From Alphaproteobacteria bacterium (GTDB lineage Bacteria > Pseudomonadota > Alphaproteobacteria > JAEUKQ01): DNA of 48,111 bases. Positions 817-32,936 of the stretch are shown piece after piece (position 1 is the first letter of the stretch; each line of letters opens with the position of its first letter). Where the stretch lies: the NCBI GenBank assembly GCA_016794225.1, contig JAEUKQ010000004.1, positions 22,177 through 70,287 on the forward strand, written 5' to 3'. The position numbers and the translations under genes are program-made. The notes under the pieces are model-generated. The model saw only the letters and a list, made by a program, of their open reading frames with translations, had not been told where the DNA came from and ran no database searches.

Positions 817-3393
817 TTACTTTTCCATCAACAAAGGTAGTTGCATTTCAAGCAAGAAGGGGGTTTTCTCGACGTTTAACGATCCTTGGTGAAGTTCAAA
901 AATAATACGCGCAACCGATATTGCCAAATTATTTTGTGGGGCAGAGTTATTTTGATGATGGTTGTTAAATTCTATTGTCCAACATACAAAACCTTTCTTG
1001 TATGAAACTTCACCTTTTACAAAAGGTCCATAGATTCTGTTAATCTCAAGTATGTTTGCCAATGCTTTTTGAAGCAAAGCTGCATCTACAAGAACCAAGC
1101 GATTGGCGTCAAAATCTTGGTGGTTCCAGATAATTGAATCAGTGGTTGTTTGCGTTTCTAGCGTTTTAGAAACCAGCAAATCCAGTTCATGAACTGATAA
1201 TGTTTGATCATTAAAGATAATCTTTTTTTGTTCATAATTACCAAGAAATTGTAGGTTTTGTACAAACCGGTCGATATCTTGAAGACTTTTGCTAAGCTTA
1301 ACATATTCCATTTGTTGGTGATCAAGGGGCAGGGACGTTGCCTGTATGCGCATTTGCTTTAGAAATGGTTCAAGATCTTGGGTAATCCAGGACAGAAATA
1401 AAGATCGGAAACGGCCAGTTTCAGAAAATATTTTAGCCTGATCTATATCTTCAGCAAGATGAACACGTTCAACCGCTACGGCAATCTGGTCAGCAAGTGC
1501 ATCAAGCAATCTTCTCTCTTCAGGGCGTAATAAAAGTTCTTCGTCATCACGGTATAACCCAAGCAAGCCCACTTGACCGCGCTCGGTTCGCAATGGAATA
1601 AAAAGCCTTTTGGCACCGGGCAATGTGTCTGTTCCCGGTCCGGTCATTGTATCGTGATCCCATGCCCATTTAGCTGCGGCATAATCAGAGGATTCAAGAA
1701 CCTCTTGTGTGGGATAACTTGATCTAATCGTTAGCTTGTCACCTTCTGGTTGTAACAAAACAACTTGCGCTTTTAGCATATCAGCTATTTGCCGACTGGC
1801 TGCATCCAATAAATCATCAACATCACCAATCGCTGCAATCTTGCGGCTAAAATTATATAAATCAGTAGTTGTTTTGGCCCGTTCTTGTGCACTTTTTGCT
1901 TGGTTTCTTAGGCGAACATTAAGTTTACTCGCTAAAATGGACACCAGCAATAAAAACCCGAAAGTAACAAAATTTAGGGGTTCTGCAATGGTTAAGGTAT
2001 AATAAGGCGGTGTTAAAAAATAATTATACGCAAGCGCACTTAAAGCTGATGCATAAAGCGCTGGCCCAAGACCAAAACGTGTTGATGCGCCAAAAACCGC
2101 TGCCAGAAAAAAGATTGCCAAATCCCGATTTTGTCCGGCTGAATGCAAAAGCCAGCTTATTAATAGCGCTAGTCCTACAAAACCACTTGCCATCACATAA
2201 CTAAAAAAACTTTTCATCTCATTTGGTAGGGGCTGACCGGACGGAGTGTTTCCAGATTCGGCCTGGGCAGAAATAACGTGGATGCCAATTTTTCCAGATT
2301 CACGCACGAGGTCACGAACAATAGATCCATGAAGAAATTCAAACCATTTTGACCGCGGCGATTTGCCAAGAATAATTTGGGTAATATTATTTTCACGCGC
2401 ATAATTTAGCAAATCTGAAGCTATCTGCCGCCCAGGAATAACAACGGTATCTCCACCCAATTGTTCTGCAAGTCGCAAAGATTTTGCAATACGTTCATGT
2501 GCTTCAACAGGTAATGTATGATGGCGGGTTGACTCAATATAAATTGCTACCCATTTTGCTTGGATTCTGTCTGCCATTCGTCTGGTATAGCGCACCAAAT
2601 CCTGCGAACTACTATTTTCGTTAATGCAAACCAAAATTCGTTCACCAGCAGGCCACGGGCCATCAATAGAATTGTTCTGCATGTACTGAACCATGTCATC
2701 ATCGACATGCTGGGCGGTTTGTCGTAAAGCGAGTTCCCGAAGCGCTGTTAAATTTCCTTCAGTGAAGTAGTTCTGCAAAGCCTTTTGGGCTTGATCACCC
2801 ATATAAACTTTGCCTTCTTGAACACGCCGTATCAAATCTTGAGGCGTAAGATCAATAAGTTCGATTGCGTCAGCTGTATCAATAAGTCGGTCGGGAATTG
2901 TCTCGCGAACCCGCACACTGGTAATTTGTGCAACCACATCATTGAGACTTTCGACATGCTGAATATTCAGGGTCGTATATACATCAATCCCTGCGGCCAG
3001 AATTTCCTCAACATCCATATAACGCTTTGGATGGCGACAATCGGGCGCGTTTGTGTGCGCAAATTCATCTACTAAAACAAGTTGAGGTGCACGCTTTAAA
3101 ATAGCGTCCAAATCCATTTCTTCTAACAAACGACCCTTATAATGTAGCCGCTGCCTTGGAATAATTTCCAATCCAGTGACAAATGCTTCTGTTTCCCGGC
3201 GACCATGGGTTTCGACCAGCCCAATGACAACATCCACGCCTTGTTTTTTTTGATCTTGGGCATTTTGCAACATATGATACGTTTTACCAACACCCGGAGC
3301 TGCCCCTAAAAATATTTTTAACCGACCACGTTTTTGTCTGTTTGTTTCATCAAGCAAATTGTCAGGCAACAAGTGGTTTGTGGTTTGTGGCAT
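817..3393 (-). CDS. kdpD: KdpD-type potassium sensor with a degenerate histidine-kinase half
   Basis: Membrane sensor that normally autophosphorylates and passes phosphate to KdpE to control the Kdp pump. The 858 residues are near full length. The N-terminal KdpD domain has an intact Walker A (GAAPGVGKT, residues 30-38) and a Walker-B-like LVLVDEFAH (105-113). A USP-like domain follows (~250-375), then four membrane segments (~395-495, DUF4118) and a GAF-like domain (~515-640). The transmitter half is eroded. The H-box SHDLRTPL is replaced by TQDLEPFL, so the phospho-acceptor His is Gln672. The N-box reads NILEINRIY, with Ile784 in place of the key Asn. No DxGxG or GxGLGL glycine boxes can be found before the C-terminus. 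The reading frame is uninterrupted, so this looks like a maintained pseudokinase and not a simple pseudogene. It lies 8 bases after kdpC, and no kdpE follows. Confidence 0.92.
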   Translation of the reverse strand: MPQTTNHLLPDNLLDETNRQKRGRLKIFLGAAPGVGKTYHMLQNAQDQKKQGVDVVIGLVETHGRRETEAFVTGLEIIPRQRLHYKGRLLEEMDLDAILKRAPQLVLVDEFAHTNAPDCRHPKRYMDVEEILAAGIDVYTTLNIQHVESLNDVVAQITSVRVRETIPDRLIDTADAIELIDLTPQDLIRRVQEGKVYMGDQAQKALQNYFTEGNLTALRELALRQTAQHVDDDMVQYMQNNSIDGPWPAGERILVCINENSSSQDLVRYTRRMADRIQAKWVAIYIESTRHHTLPVEAHERIAKSLRLAEQLGGDTVVIPGRQIASDLLNYARENNITQIILGKSPRSKWFEFLHGSIVRDLVRESGKIGIHVISAQAESGNTPSGQPLPNEMKSFFSYVMASGFVGLALLISWLLHSAGQNRDLAIFFLAAVFGASTRFGLGPALYASALSALAYNYFLTPPYYTLTIAEPLNFVTFGFLLLVSILASKLNVRLRNQAKSAQERAKTTTDLYNFSRKIAAIGDVDDLLDAASRQIADMLKAQVVLLQPEGDKLTIRSSYPTQEVLESSDYAAAKWAWDHDTMTGPGTDTLPGAKRLFIPLRTERGQVGLLGLYRDDEELLLRPEERRLLDALADQIAVAVERVHLAEDIDQAKIFSETGRFRSLFLSWITQDLEPFLKQMRIQATSLPLDHQQMEYVKLSKSLQDIDRFVQNLQFLGNYEQKKIIFNDQTLSVHELDLLVSKTLETQTTTDSIIWNHQDFDANRLVLVDAALLQKALANILEINRIYGPFVKGEVSYKKGFVCWTIEFNNHHQNNSAPQNNLAISVARIIFELHQGSLNVEKTPFLLEMQLPLLMEK

Positions 3394-3401
3394 GTAATTT
3401 C

Positions 3402-3983
3402 CTAGGGTTTAATGGGATAAAGCTGATCAAGAACAAGGTTTATTTGCAAAACATTTATTCTTGGTTCGCCCAAGATAAAAAAAGTTCTTGGTATGGTATT
3501 GTCTTCAATCAGTTTTAATAATTCATCTTCTGATACTTGGCGTGATCTGGCTATTCGAGGAACTTGGAAGCGTGCAGACTCTGGGGTAATGTGTGGATCA
3601 AGGTTGCTGCCTGAAACAGTTACAATGTCCATCGGAATAGGTTGAGAACTGCCTTGGTTTTTTACCAATAAATATTTAGCTTTCTCGATAACGTCCCTTA
3701 ACAGAACATGGTTTGTTTGGCCAAGATTACGTCCTATAGAAATTGCCCGGTTGTCGGTGTTGATCAGGGAAGGGCGGCCATGAAAATAATGATCTTGCTC
3801 AAAAGACTGGGCAATTAATATCGATCCTTGAGAAACACCATGATGGGTAAAAACAAAACTGCCATTTGCCTGGTTTTGGAAAAATATTTGTCCAATTAGG
3901 GTAATAAAAGCCGGGTACACTACACCTGTTAGGATCAGCAAACATCCAAAAATCAATATTGTTGTACGTAGTAGCCGGACCAT
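3402..3983 (-). CDS. kdpC: Potassium-transporting ATPase subunit C (KdpC)
   Basis: Single-span accessory subunit of the KdpFABC pump, thought to raise the ATP affinity of KdpB and stabilise the complex. The 193 residues match the usual ~190. There is one hydrophobic N-terminal segment (about residues 7-34). A periplasmic domain follows with family-like stretches such as YFHGRPS and the SGSNLDPHITPESA block. It sits 8 bases after kdpB and 8 bases before kdpD, so it is probably translated from the shared kdp mRNA. Nothing is missing compared with the family. Confidence 0.95.
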   Translation of the reverse strand: MVRLLRTTILIFGCLLILTGVVYPAFITLIGQIFFQNQANGSFVFTHHGVSQGSILIAQSFEQDHYFHGRPSLINTDNRAISIGRNLGQTNHVLLRDVIEKAKYLLVKNQGSSQPIPMDIVTVSGSNLDPHITPESARFQVPRIARSRQVSEDELLKLIEDNTIPRTFFILGEPRINVLQINLVLDQLYPIKP

Positions 3984-3991
3984 AGATAACT

Positions 3992-6055
3992 TTACACCAA
4001 TTTCAGAAAATTAATCATCAAATCAATTATTTTAATGCCAATAAAAGGAACAATAATGCCACCTAGGCCATAAATTAATATATTTCTCCTTAGAATAGAA
4101 GACGCATCCTGGTTTAAATAACGAACCCCCCGTAATGCAAGTGGTAACAAGGCAATAACAATTAAAGCATTAAAAACAATGGCCGATAGCATAGCACTTT
4201 CCGGACTAGCCAGATGCATAATATTAAGAACTTCTAGACCCGGGTAAATATCACTAAATAGGGCAGGAATAATCACAAAATATTTGGCCACGTCGTTGGT
4301 AATAGAAAAAGTTGTTAAGGCACCGCGTGTCATTAATAATTCTTTACCAATCCGCACAATTTCGATCAGTTTTGTTGGATTGCTGTCAAGATCAATCATG
4401 TTACCAGCTTCACGCGCGGCTTGTGTGCCGGTTTGCATCGCAACACCTACATCAGCCTGTGCTAATGCTGGTGCGTCGTTTGTCCCGTCGCCACACATAG
4501 CAACCAATTTACCTTTTGATTGTTCGCTGCGAATAAGTTTTAGCTTGGTTTCGGGTGTTGCCTGGGCTAGAAAGTCGTCAACACCTGCTTCTGCGGCTAT
4601 TGCGGCTGCTGTTAGTGGATTATCGCCCGTGATCATAATTGTACGAATTCCCATACGACGTAGTTCAGAAAATCGCTCGCGGATTCCGCCTTTGATAGTG
4701 TCCTTCAAATGAATAACACCCAAAAATATGTCATCCTTGGCAACTACAAGTGGTGTTCCGCCTTGTTTGGCAATCTTTTCGGTTATTTTGATCAGCTCGG
4801 TCGGCGTTTGAAATGATGATGTTTGGTTTTTTTGTTTCACAAAATCAATAATGACATCAACGGCTCCTTTGCGAACTTGATGCCCGTCAATGTCAACGCC
4901 GCTCATGCGCGTTTGTGCTTTAAAAGGAATAAAGACAGGTTGTTGTTTTAATAAGTTTTGGCCGCGCAACCCATATTTTTCTTTGGCTAACACAACAATT
5001 GACCGACCCTCAGGTGTTTCATCGCTTAAAGAAGCTAGTTGTGCGGCTTCCGCTAAATCCTGCAAGGAAGATGTTGATAAAGCAATAAATTCGTGTGCCA
5101 GCCGATTGCCAAGAGTAATAGTTCCGGTTTTATCAAGCAACAGAGTGTTGACGTCTCCAGCAGCTTCTACGGCACGACCCGAAGTTGCAAGAACATTAAG
5201 ACGAATTAGACGGTCCATGCCTGAAATGCCGATGGCCGACAACAATCCGCCAATCGTGGTTGGTATCAATAAAACAAAAAGCGCAAGCAGCATCATCAAC
5301 GATGAATCGGACCCGGCATAATGGGTGAAAGCCGGGATAGACGCTGTTGTAAATAGTAAAAACAATGTCATTCCTGACAACAGGACATTAAGTGCTATTT
5401 CATTGGGGGTTTTTTGCCGCTTTGACCCCTCAACAAGTTTAATCATACGGTCTAAAAAACTATTTCCAGCGTCTTGGGTAATACGAATCCTGATGTGATC
5501 AGAAAGAACCCTGGTTCCACCTGTTACTGCCGATCTGTCGCCGCCACTTTCGCGAATGACCGGTGCTGATTCACCGGTTATGGCTGACTCATCAACAGAA
5601 GCTATTCCCTCGATAACCTCGCCATCTCCGGGGATAAAATCACCAGCTTCAACTAACACAAGATCATTAATTTTTAACTGGGATGCCGGAATGCGTTGAA
5701 AATTTTGGGCTGCAGCATCATCAAGTTTTTTAGCCATTGTTGCTTTTTGACTGGCGCGCAGCGAATTTGCTTGGGCTTTGCCGCGACCCTCGGCCAAGGT
5801 TTCTGCAAAAAGGCCAAATATAACAGTAAGCCAAAGCCAAAACACCAGCTGTGCGTAAAAACCAGTGTTGGAAGACCCTAAATATAGGCTTTGTACCAGT
5901 AAAATGGTTGCACATAAAGTAGTAATTTCCAAAACAAACATAATTGGATTTTTAAGCGAGTAATAAGGATTCAACCTTGCTAAAGCTTGAACCATTGCTT
6001 GACCATATAGTAACAAATCTGTATTTAGGCGTTTTTTAAGTGTTTTGTTTGTCAT
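3992..6055 (-). CDS. kdpB: Potassium-transporting P-type ATPase subunit B (KdpB)
   Basis: Catalytic P-type ATPase subunit of the KdpFABC potassium pump in the inner membrane. The 687 residues match the family length. The actuator TGES loop (AITGESAPV), the phosphorylation site [11 protein letters not shown] and the hinge [19 protein letters not shown] are all intact. Hydrophobic spans occur at the N-terminus, around the SIPAFT region and at the C-terminus. The gene lies 22 bases after kdpA. By its motifs the enzyme should be active, in contrast to the neighbouring KdpD kinase domain. Confidence 0.97.
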
Positions 6056-6077
6056 GATGCTGGGTATATTCCGGTTA

Positions 6078-7793
6078 CTAAGGGGGGGTAGCAGATATTA
6101 ATAAAAAATGTTCAGCTATTGGACCCAACGCTAAAGCCGGTAAAAGTAACGAAAAGACAAAAATGACCCCGATTAATAAGATAATAAAAGTAAAATTATG
6201 GGTCGGTAAACTGCCAACGGTTATAGGGCTTAAGCGCTTAGCAGCAAGTGATCCGGCGATTGCAAGTACCGGTATCATCACTAATAATCGACCAAGCAGC
6301 ATGACAACAGCGCCAGTTATGTTAAAAAATGGCGTATTAGCGTTAAATCCAGCAAAAGCACTTCCATTACCGGTTGCGGTCGAGGTGTAGAAATAAAGTA
6401 ATTCGCTAAATCCATGCGCACTTGGGTTTGCCATATTTTGCGTGATATCTGGACGGTATAGAGTTAATGCCGTAAAGCTCAAGATAAGAAAAGGTATTAC
6501 TAATGTTGCCAGCACAGTCATTTTTATTTCCCGAATTTGCAGCTTATTGCCTTTATATTCGGGTGTCCTACCAACCATAAGACCAGCAATAAAAGCAGTT
6601 AAAATAACAAACAGCAGCATCCCGTAAAGCCCTGATCCTGCGCCGCCAATCAAAATACCCCCAAGCATCATATTCCATAACATGATGCCCCCGCTTAGGG
6701 GCATAAAGCTGCTGTGCATTGCGTTAACCGCACCTGTTGCGGTGGCTGTGGTTAAATTTGCATAAAATATCGAATTAAAAAGACCAAAACGTACTTCTTT
6801 GCCCTCCATATTAATGCCAGTTAAGATAATGTTATTTTCAGCAGCCATTTGCTGTAGGATGGGATTTGGCTGTTGTTCAAAGTAGTACATTAGGCCTGCG
6901 TGGATAAATAAAAGGCAGGCCATGGCTGTAAAAATAGCCCATCCCTGCCGCTGATCACCAATCATTCGACCAAAAACATTGGTCAAAGCGGCCCCAATAA
7001 TAGCCATCATCATCATCTGCAGGAAATTGCTTAAGGGTGTTGGGTTTTCATAAGGATGGGATGAATTTGTATTAAAAAATCCTCCACCATTCGTGCCAAT
7101 AATTTTGATAGCCTCTTGTGCGGCAACAGGTCCTTGCGGAATCATTTGGTTTTTCTGTTCAAGAGTTGTAACAGCAATATCACCAGAAAAATTTTGGGGT
7201 ACACCCTGCCAAATCAGAAAAATAGCTAAAATAATTGATAACGGTAATAATACATATAAAATAGCCCGAGTAACATCGACCCAAAAATTGCCAATAGTTT
7301 GTTTTTCTTGACGACTAAATCCACGAATTAGCGCAATGGCAACCACCATTCCGCTGGCGGCTGAAAAAAAGTTCTGGACAGTTAAGCCGACCATTTGCGA
7401 CAGATGGGAAAGACTTATCTCCCCACTATAATTTTGCCAGTTTGTGTTGGTTAAAAAGCTGATAGCTGTGTTTAAAGCTAAATCAGGGGACAGATTGGCA
7501 ACATGGTTTGGATTAAATGGCAAATATGCTTGTAAGCGCAAAATAGCATAAAGAACAACAAAACCAACGGCATGAAAAATTAAAAGGCACGCTATATAAG
7601 TAATCCAATGTTGCTCAACATCAGGGCGAATTCTTGCAATCTTGTAAAAAGTGGTCTCTATTTTTGCTATCTTGGGTCGCAACCAAAATTCTTCACCGCT
7701 AAAAACGCGCGTTATGTACCAACCCATGGGCTTTATGGTCGCAATCAGCAGAGTTACGTACATCAAGAACTGAAAAAGATCAGCTATACTCAT
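6078..7793 (-). CDS. kdpA: Potassium-transporting ATPase subunit A (KdpA)
   Basis: Potassium-binding, channel-like subunit of KdpFABC, related to the SKT (Trk/Ktr) channel superfamily. The 571 residues form many membrane spans. The selectivity-filter regions can be recognised as [11 protein letters not shown], the [19 protein letters not shown] block and [15 protein letters not shown]. The start ATG is preceded by AAGGAT at good spacing. kdpF ends 26 bases upstream. Length and motifs are normal. Confidence 0.97.
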
Positions 7794-7819: not shown

Positions 7820-7906
7820 CTAAAACCGTTCTGGCCACAACAAGGTTATTACCATATACACAAAAACTACAATAACCAACAAACCCCCTAAAATAAGGTC
7901 CAGCAC
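7820..7906 (-). CDS. kdpF: KdpF, 28-residue subunit of the Kdp potassium pump
   Basis: A 28-codon gene found by reading the leader upstream of kdpA. A GTG start (7904-7906) sits 8 bases after AAAAGG. The product is one hydrophobic helix ending in WPERF, and the PERF ending is the hallmark of KdpF (commonly LLRPERF). KdpF packs against KdpA and stabilises the complex. A second GTG lies three codons upstream, but it overlaps the AAAAGG, so the inner GTG is preferred. The stop is 26 bases before kdpA, as expected for kdpFABC. Position, length and C-terminal motif all agree. Confidence 0.85.
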   Translation of the reverse strand: MLDLILGGLLVIVVFVYMVITLLWPERF

Positions 7907-7924
7907 GGTCAGCACCTTTTCAGA

Positions 7925-8014
7925 TCAAACACGGGAACAGAAAAGCCCGTAAAGATAAAAACAAAAAAACGCCATTAGTGTGGCGCCAATCAAGATAAAA
8001 TCAAGTATAAACAT
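7925..8014 (-). CDS. 29-residue single-span membrane peptide leading the kdp operon
   Basis: The ORF runs ATG to TGA (29 residues) and ends 18 bases before kdpF. The product begins MFILDFILIG, is hydrophobic throughout with several aromatics, and ends with Cys-Ser-Arg-Val. It lies about 20 bases inside the predicted kdp transcript, and GAGG is 11 bases upstream of the ATG. Tiny hydrophobic ORFs ahead of kdpF occur in other bacteria to my recollection, usually annotated as hypothetical; I have not verified homology. It could be an extra Kdp subunit, a leader peptide or a chance ORF. Confidence 0.5.
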   Translation of the reverse strand: MFILDFILIGATLMAFFCFYLYGLFCSRV

Positions 8015-31473: not shown

Positions 31474-31510
31474 GATGATGGTGGTGGGTTGGGTGTGTAA
31501 TGATCAAGAA
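31474..31510. repeat. Direct repeat, left copy, flanking the DUF4139 gene
   Basis: Starts GATGATGGTGGTGGGTTGGG and continues through TGTGTAATGATCAAGA. The right copy at 32989-33024 matches closely, with one small gap and a few substitutions. Both are in the same orientation, one just before and one just after the gene. Confidence 0.6.
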
Positions 31511-31526
31511 AGAGGAGTCAAAAGGA

Positions 31527-32936
31527 ATGAATAAGATAATGATGGCAACGATGGTGGCGGTGGGGATAAATGGAATGAATGCATATGGACAGGAACAGCA
31601 AATAGGAATTGAAGCGCAAAGGGGTATTGCGGTAACGATTTACAACGAGAATCTAGCATTGGTGCGGGATCAGCGGAGTGTGGAATTTAGGAAAGGGATC
31701 AGCGACCTGGCGTTTTTGGATGTGAGTGGGCGGATTAGGTCTGAGACCAGTTTACTGCAGGTGGCTGGTGGTGGTGTTGGGATGCTGGAGCAGAATTTTG
31801 ACTTTGACCTGCTGACACCGGCGAAGTTGTTGGAGAAGTCTGTGGGTGGGAAAGTTAGGATTGCGGTATGGAACCATGTGACAGAGACAGAGGATATAGT
31901 TGAGGCGGAGGTACTGAGTGTATCGGAAGGTGTGGTATTGAAGATGGGGGATCAGATTGTAACGGATATACCAGGGCGGATTATTTATGACAAGGTGCCA
32001 AGCAATTTGCGTGCGCGACCGACCTTGGTGATGAAGGTGGATAGTGGGGTGGAGGGGAAGAGGGTGGTGGAGTTACAATATCTGACGGGTGGTTTATCGT
32101 GGAAGGCGGATTATGTGGCGTCATTAAGTGGGGATGAGAAGCAATTGAACTTAACGGGGTTGGTAACCTTAACCAACCAAAGTGGGGTTACCTATCACAA
32201 CGCCAAACTGCAATTGGTGGCTGGGGATTTAAACCTGGTGAAGGATGGTGGTGAAAACTATAGTAATCTGGCACCTGTGATGATGACTATGGATCAGAGT
32301 GAGAAACAGCTGCAACAAGAATCGTTATTTGAATATCATTTATATAGTTTAGAGCGGCCGACGACGATAGCCCAGAACCAAACGAAGCAGGTGGTGATGT
32401 TAACGGGTGTGGGTATAGGGGTGAAGAAAGAATATCGATTTGGTGGGATAACGAATGGGTATACAAGTGTGATGGGAGATCGTGCGTTGGTGAATGCATC
32501 GGTACGGATTAGCTTTAGTAACACCGAGGCTGGCGGGTTAGGGATGCCATTACCCAAAGGTATTGTGCGCGTATACAAGAATGACAGCAAGGGTCAGGCG
32601 ATTTTTGTGGGTGAAGATAGGGTAGAACACACACCGAAGGGCGAGGATGTAACCCTAACATTGGGAGAGGCGTTTGACGTGACAGCGCGGGCGCGGCAGA
32701 CCGAGTTGAGTAAGATCAGCAACAAAGTGTATGAAAGTGCGTATGAGGTTGAGTTTAAGAATGCGAAGAATGAAGAGGTAGAGGTGACATTGGTTGAAGC
32801 AGTACCGGGGGATTGGAAGATATTGAGAGAAAGTGTGGCTGGTATGAAGATTAATGCCCATCAGATGCAATGGAAGATTAAGGTACCGGCGAATGGGAAG
32901 ACGATCTTTACCTACCGGGTGCGTGTAACCTATTAG
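31527..32936 (+). CDS. DUF4139 domain-containing secreted protein
   Basis: A 469-residue protein with a signal peptide (to about AYG, residue ~21). The core pattern is YLTGGLSWKADYVASLSG, then LTGLVTLTNQSG and LQLVAGDLNLV. These are hallmarks of DUF4139, secreted beta-rich proteins of unknown function. The ATG at 31527 follows AGAGGAG at 9 bases and is preferred over the in-frame ATG at 31500, which lies in the direct repeat. The coding strand is strikingly G-rich with many G-ending codons (GTG, TTG, GGG), unlike all its neighbours. Imperfect direct repeats flank it and a terminator follows. This hints at recent acquisition. Confidence 0.8.
   Translation: MNKIMMATMVAVGINGMNAYGQEQQIGIEAQRGIAVTIYNENLALVRDQRSVEFRKGISDLAFLDVSGRIRSETSLLQVAGGGVGMLEQNFDFDLLTPAKLLEKSVGGKVRIAVWNHVTETEDIVEAEVLSVSEGVVLKMGDQIVTDIPGRIIYDKVPSNLRARPTLVMKVDSGVEGKRVVELQYLTGGLSWKADYVASLSGDEKQLNLTGLVTLTNQSGVTYHNAKLQLVAGDLNLVKDGGENYSNLAPVMMTMDQSEKQLQQESLFEYHLYSLERPTTIAQNQTKQVVMLTGVGIGVKKEYRFGGITNGYTSVMGDRALVNASVRISFSNTEAGGLGMPLPKGIVRVYKNDSKGQAIFVGEDRVEHTPKGEDVTLTLGEAFDVTARARQTELSKISNKVYESAYEVEFKNAKNEEVEVTLVEAVPGDWKILRESVAGMKINAHQMQWKIKVPANGKTIFTYRVRVTY

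Follow-up and report, generated by a model that had tools for sequence, protein, structure and literature searches.

The window analysed here, a stretch of 48,111 nucleotides from a draft alphaproteobacterial genome (1.62 Mb in 147 contigs), carries a minus-strand operon in the order probable kdpF (7820..7915), kdpA (6078..7793; TIGR00680, above cut-off), kdpB (3992..6055; TIGR01497, above cut-off), kdpC (3402..3983; PF02669, E = 1e-59) and kdpD (817..3393), with the pump genes complete. The probable kdpF was assigned from position, length (31 aa, GTG start) and sequence (one hydrophobic stretch), not from a profile, and a second small ORF (7925-8014, minus strand, 29 aa, one hydrophobic stretch) lies just upstream of it. 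The kdpD frame, which adjoins kdpABC, runs through 858 codons (858 aa) with no internal stop, as the first-pass annotation had stated. Downstream of it is a convergent folE-like gene (116-796), named by reading its sequence and not by profile. No kdpE was found beside the kdp operon in the window. The genome encodes a CtrA, CckA, DivK, PleD, NtrY/NtrX and ChvG/ChvI set, by which it was assigned to the alphaproteobacterial class. Elsewhere in the window, a gene for a 478-aa DUF4139 protein (31500-32936) stands out by its GC skew, which is extreme (between +0.32 and +0.42 across 31-33 kb, compared with roughly 0 to +0.2 in the surroundings), and has no internal tandem repeats; it is perhaps a recent arrival or has an odd purine-loaded coding strand.

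Domain Architecture of KdpD

Pfam matched the KdpD, Usp, DUF4118 and GAF_3 families in the window KdpD, and the score for the KdpD sensor domain (PF02702, 333 bits against a cut-off of 26.1, E = 6.6e-100) places the protein in the KdpD family. On the minus strand, the KdpD domain (residues 21-230, 2704..3333), which corresponds to the domain that acts as an atypical serine kinase in E. coli KdpD and is 57% identical to it, is followed by a Usp domain (residues 251-366, 2296..2643), the four-helix DUF4118 membrane domain (residues 399-505, 1879..2199) and a GAF region (residues 506-643, 1465..1878), the last delimited by Pfam, the AlphaFold model and its similarity in Foldseek to structure 4y2f, the GAF domain of E. 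coli KdpD. The remainder is the transmitter half (residues 644-858, 817-1464), which had previously been placed at 817-1500, right to within a few codons. It consists of a pseudo-DHp domain (residues 644-735, 1189..1464) and a pseudo-CA domain (residues 736-858, 820..1188) with its ATP lid deleted. With the NCBIfam model NF038185 (KdpD_non_kinase) the protein scored 434 bits, below the cut-off of 550.

Degeneration of the Histidine Kinase Half

Neither HisKA nor HATPase_c was matched by Pfam in the full-length protein at E<=1, nor in residues 644-858 alone at E<=10 (subject to the HMMER filters). In the alignment to E. coli KdpD, the phospho-acceptor His673 is replaced by Gln672 (1378..1380) and the N-box Asn788 by Ile784 (1042..1044), while the G1 box, F box and ATP lid are deleted at the junction of residues 808/809 (967..972) and the G2 box is ruined (QNNLAISV). 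The features by which a functional sensor histidine kinase is recognised (the His, the N-box Asn, DxGxG in G1 and GxGxG in G2) are thus missing, in agreement with the first-pass annotation, except that one N-box Asn, the first (N784 in E. coli), which it had left unmentioned, is retained as Asn780. Misalignment of the catalytic boxes was rejected as an explanation on the evidence of Pfam and hhalign, of MAFFT alignments with 51-80 homologues and of the modelled structure. The histidine kinase of this protein is almost certainly dead, and the earlier prediction that autophosphorylation has been lost stands.

The degenerate half is a real pseudo-kinase in which the fold pattern survives, not a misread sequence. 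Homology to the kinase halves of intact KdpDs extends over all of this half (hhalign probability 95%, E = 3e-8, 206 columns), whose GC content by codon position (0.52/0.27/0.32) shows a coding pattern. A hydrophobic residue stands in 45 of the 49 core hydrophobic columns (92%, against a background of 43%; none of 20000 permutations was as high), while only 8/33 catalytic columns (invariant polar or glycine) are retained. AlphaFold predicted the GAF domain, a long helical hairpin (H119-181 and H189-216 in model numbering, in the pseudo-DHp) and an alpha/beta domain (the pseudo-CA) with a mean pLDDT of 87, although the underlying alignment included active homologues and the model may lean to their fold. 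Foldseek matched this model to histidine kinases, among them CpxA, HprS and RetS.

Because synonymous sites would be saturated, selection was assessed by the hydrophobic-core test and a simulation of neutral decay rather than by dN/dS; the two genomes of the order compared share about 50-54% overall identity, and outgroups differ in base composition. The simulation started from an intact half (2000 runs per identity level) and assumed neutrality from the onset of divergence. Stop-free sequences were obtained in 21/2000 runs at 70% identity and in 0, 0 and 1 of 2000 at 60, 50 and 45%, so that the frame stayed open in 1/6000 neutral runs at identity <=60%. This shows some selection maintaining the reading frame of the kinase half, whatever its purpose, and bears out the earlier proposal that the frame is kept beside a complete pump. 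The KdpDs of G020, G119 and G151 are truncated; the transmitter half is dispensable in those genomes, so the serine kinase by itself does not account for its retention in the window KdpD. It may be kept as a dimer module, a passive remnant or a surface for binding a regulator.

KdpE and Other Kinases in the Genome

The genome was searched for KdpE and none was found among its 147 contigs, which in a draft falls short of absolute absence. Among its OmpR-type regulators, four in all, the top-scoring identities are CtrA, OmpR, CreB (ChvI-like) and PhoB, and the best KdpE match reaches about 110 bits, compared with at least 175 for true KdpEs, far under the gap that divides true KdpEs from other regulators across 67 genomes. 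Only one KdpD match exists in the genome, and no complete KdpDE two-component system was recognised. Eight HisKA kinases are encoded, several paired with regulators of their own, and by our reading they would belong to other conserved pathways. A foreign Kdp-type kinase was also searched for in the genome, and none was found.

Nearest Relatives

Scanning GTDB contigs with the single window protein gave no matches, and an alignment-based scan yielded 80 KdpD loci. In these 80 nearest KdpDs, all from other GTDB species, His673 is present in every sequence that reaches the position, and relative to them the kinase loss is apparently particular to this order. G001, the one further genome of the order that was examined, encodes a KdpD with Lys for the His, Ile for the Asn and a largely intact G2 box, so the alignment with close relatives called for earlier reveals a loss common to both. 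A tree built from the non-kinase part places the window and G001 proteins as sisters (SH-aLRT 93), with an intact clade adjoining them (98). One ancestral inactivation would be the simplest reading, and two are possible. Identity between the two sisters falls from 79% in the serine kinase domain through 63% in Usp and 57% in GAF to 23% in DHp and 17% in CA, whereas intact pairs at similar distance (G038, G005, G015a) hold 43-55% in DHp/CA (51% and 45%, respectively, for G038-G005).

G001 retains KdpE together with a separate intact Usp-TM-GAF-kinase chain that has all boxes. Separate chains for the serine kinase and the histidine kinase occur in some published systems (PMC11018627); the dead KdpD transmitter is common to the window and G001, but KdpE and the separate intact kinase are found only in the latter. 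At locus L038 of G001 (2761-7478, contig C48), which does not share a contig with kdpABC, a KdpD-like kinase without a serine kinase domain is accompanied by a lone receiver, most similar to the receiver of KdpE, and a complete KdpE lies close by. To judge from its gene content, this locus is a split Kdp system with an additional receiver.

Survey of Alphaproteobacterial Genomes

Among 385 sampled genomes of the class, 67 had a KdpD match, and the following counts cover those with a serine-kinase KdpD and a readable kinase half (51 KdpE-bearing, 10 KdpE-less). At least one intact Kdp histidine kinase was present in 51/51 KdpE-bearing genomes, lying on a separate chain in G001 and G052 and on a second KdpD copy in G100. 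An intact Kdp histidine kinase was lacking in 10/10 KdpE-less genomes, where that of KdpD is damaged or missing (G110 being borderline), and in 0/51 KdpE-bearing genomes (Fisher test, P about 1e-11; counting G110 as intact gives 6e-10; both values ignore kinship). On the tree these represent only 4-5 independent losses, none contrary, a number with which a sign test cannot reach 0.05. The kinase half is damaged in place in four of the KdpE-less genomes, namely the window genome, G115 (Tyr for His, with the N box changed), G323 (N box and G1 lost) and G110 (only G2 altered), and is truncated or absent in six (G020, G151, G119, G036, G239 and G320). Walker A, Walker B and R190 are retained in the aligned KdpE-less proteins (that of G036 read in part).

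KdpDs with truncated or missing DHp/CA domains in KdpE-less species are described in the text of a published survey (PMC11018627), in which, supplementary tables apart, degenerate kinase halves go unmentioned. Our counts agree with those truncated forms, and the forms damaged in place, as identified by alignment, are an addition to that text. Two of the latter, at L181 (G323) and L176 (G115), are full-length KdpDs damaged at the kinase boxes in KdpE-less genomes and represent more natural pseudo-kinase KdpDs. Locus L166 belongs to G100, a genome marked as 10% contaminated, which encodes one KdpD with Arg in place of the His and without KdpE next to it, and a second, intact KdpD beside KdpE; possibly this reflects duplication and divided labour.

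Conservation of the Serine Kinase and Its Target

The N-terminal domain of E. coli KdpD acts as an atypical serine kinase: by phosphorylating KdpB at Ser162 it turns the pump off (PMC11018627, Silberberg 2024). The activity works via G36/K37/T38, W39/R190 and D109/E110 and is retained in H673A and in a protein lacking residues 663-894, KdpE being dispensable for it (PMC11018627). The window KdpD has the same residues under the same numbers in Walker A (G36, K37 and T38, within G30-AAPGVGKT-Y39, 3277..3306), Walker B (Asp109-Glu110, 3064..3069) and the adenine-coordinating Arg190 (2824..2826). In the adenine clamp R190 is kept and Trp39 is replaced by Tyr39, which is the state of nearly all alphaproteobacterial KdpDs examined; in E. 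coli, W39A was assayed only in combination with R190A (PMC11018627). The predicted target is also present, Ser163 of the KdpB TGES motif (5567..5569, minus strand) aligning with E. coli Ser162 and the preceding Glu being kept.

Potassium Transporters

TrkH/KtrB and Kup were not found by profile in the window genome. Lacking a recognisable Trk/Ktr or Kup, this genome may depend on Kdp as its main potassium importer, as judged from these two transporter groups alone. Both Trk and Kup are absent from five of the nine KdpE-less genomes tested (window, G110, G119, G151 and G323), and of the remainder G020 and G115 have Kup and G239 and G320 have Trk. In G001, however, Trk and Kup are missing although KdpE is retained, an argument against a simple rule. 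Control by c-di-AMP has been demonstrated for a short KdpD. Such control is unlikely here, since diadenylate cyclase (PF02457) was not found in the window genome, while 11/14 control genomes were positive.

Discussion

The window KdpD resembles the E. coli protein (PMC11018627) in its KdpD-Usp-TM-GAF-DHp-CA order, in the numbering of Walker A/B and Arg190, in the kdpFABC genes upstream and in the KdpB TGES motif, but lacks the His, N-box Asn, G1, lid, G2 and KdpE and has Tyr39 for Trp39. Like the truncated KdpDs of KdpE-less species, as these appear in the text of PMC11018627 and in NF038185, it has kept the serine kinase domain and lost the histidine kinase in the absence of KdpE; unlike them, it carries the other half in frame as a pseudo-kinase, and its potassium-sensing membrane and GAF domains remain. 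We consider it probable that this KdpD has been reduced to its serine kinase function and throttles KdpFABC after translation. The membrane and GAF domains would supply the potassium signal, and the residue set for phosphorylating KdpB is intact apart from Tyr39, which would allow direct shut-off of the pump as in E. coli; the serine kinase activity and its control by potassium are both inferred from the E. coli work. The transmitter half would phosphorylate nothing and would be held as a structural module, probably a dimer-forming one, dimerisation being a guess. With KdpE gone, transcription of kdpFABCD would be constitutive or under another regulator, in which case potassium uptake would be controlled mainly after translation. 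Among the points that may be held against a serine-kinase-only function are the following: Trp39, part of the E. coli adenine clamp, is Tyr here, and an irreversible off-switch sounds risky if Kdp is the sole importer, so that the set point would have to differ. A doubtful extension is that in this lineage Kdp is the sole importer without KdpE-type transcriptional control, with the pseudo-kinase half as a dimerisation and gating module relaying the potassium signal of the membrane and GAF domains to the serine kinase.

The first-pass annotation had offered a ligand-binding regulator, a scaffold or the action of a foreign kinase as explanations. These are not the best reading, because the intact N-terminal serine kinase had been overlooked and no foreign Kdp kinase was found. 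That a histidine kinase of other origin phosphorylates the protein or acts through it in trans is very unlikely: the separate Usp-TM-GAF-kinase chain, lone receiver and KdpE on one contig of G001 offer a precedent, but such a chain is missing from the window genome, whose eight HisKA kinases are read as serving other pathways and whose KdpD has no His to take the phosphate. Another regulatory role has an alphaproteobacterial precedent in Caulobacter DivL, a protein whose histidine-kinase region senses DivK~P without kinase activity (PMC4211667). DivL reads a response regulator, whereas KdpD has no known partner. The pseudo-kinase half might by analogy bind the phosphorylated regulator of another pathway and feed the serine kinase or the pump, as the retained DHp/CA fold pattern would permit. 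We regard this as improbable, since the helix near the former His, where a regulator would dock, is much altered (TQDLEPFL), identity between the two pseudo-kinases (23% and 17%) is unlike that of a conserved docking surface, and KdpE is absent.

Slow decay of the transmitter half as a passive remnant, its frame held open because truncation would unfold or destabilise the remainder of KdpD, is compatible with the serine-kinase reading and carries real weight, if less than an even chance. The truncated proteins of G020, G151 and G119 resemble its end point and the in-place damage in G115, G323 and one G100 copy its early steps, but here the frame and 92% of the core hydrophobic positions survive a divergence at which neutral sequence would hold several stops. 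An assembly or sequencing error hiding an active kinase is scarcely credible even in a draft of 147 contigs, given the full-length alignment with intact KdpDs, the coding GC pattern and the loss of the same two key residues in G001, a separate assembly.

Returning to the serine-kinase reading, a possible route of loss is suggested in which the kinase came to lie on a separate chain, as in G001, and this chain and KdpE were then lost, as in the window genome, with truncation elsewhere. If Kdp is the main importer, induction by KdpE would be superfluous and a direct brake more useful. The serine kinase role is so far known from E. coli mutants and, in the text of PMC11018627, from a survey of truncated forms. 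The window KdpD is full-length, with a histidine kinase almost certainly dead by substitution while nearly all tested serine kinase residues are kept, which would make it a natural separation-of-function allele. It favours the idea that selection has retained KdpD for pump shut-off, and it offers a system for studying how potassium controls the serine kinase when histidine kinase and phosphatase activity are absent.
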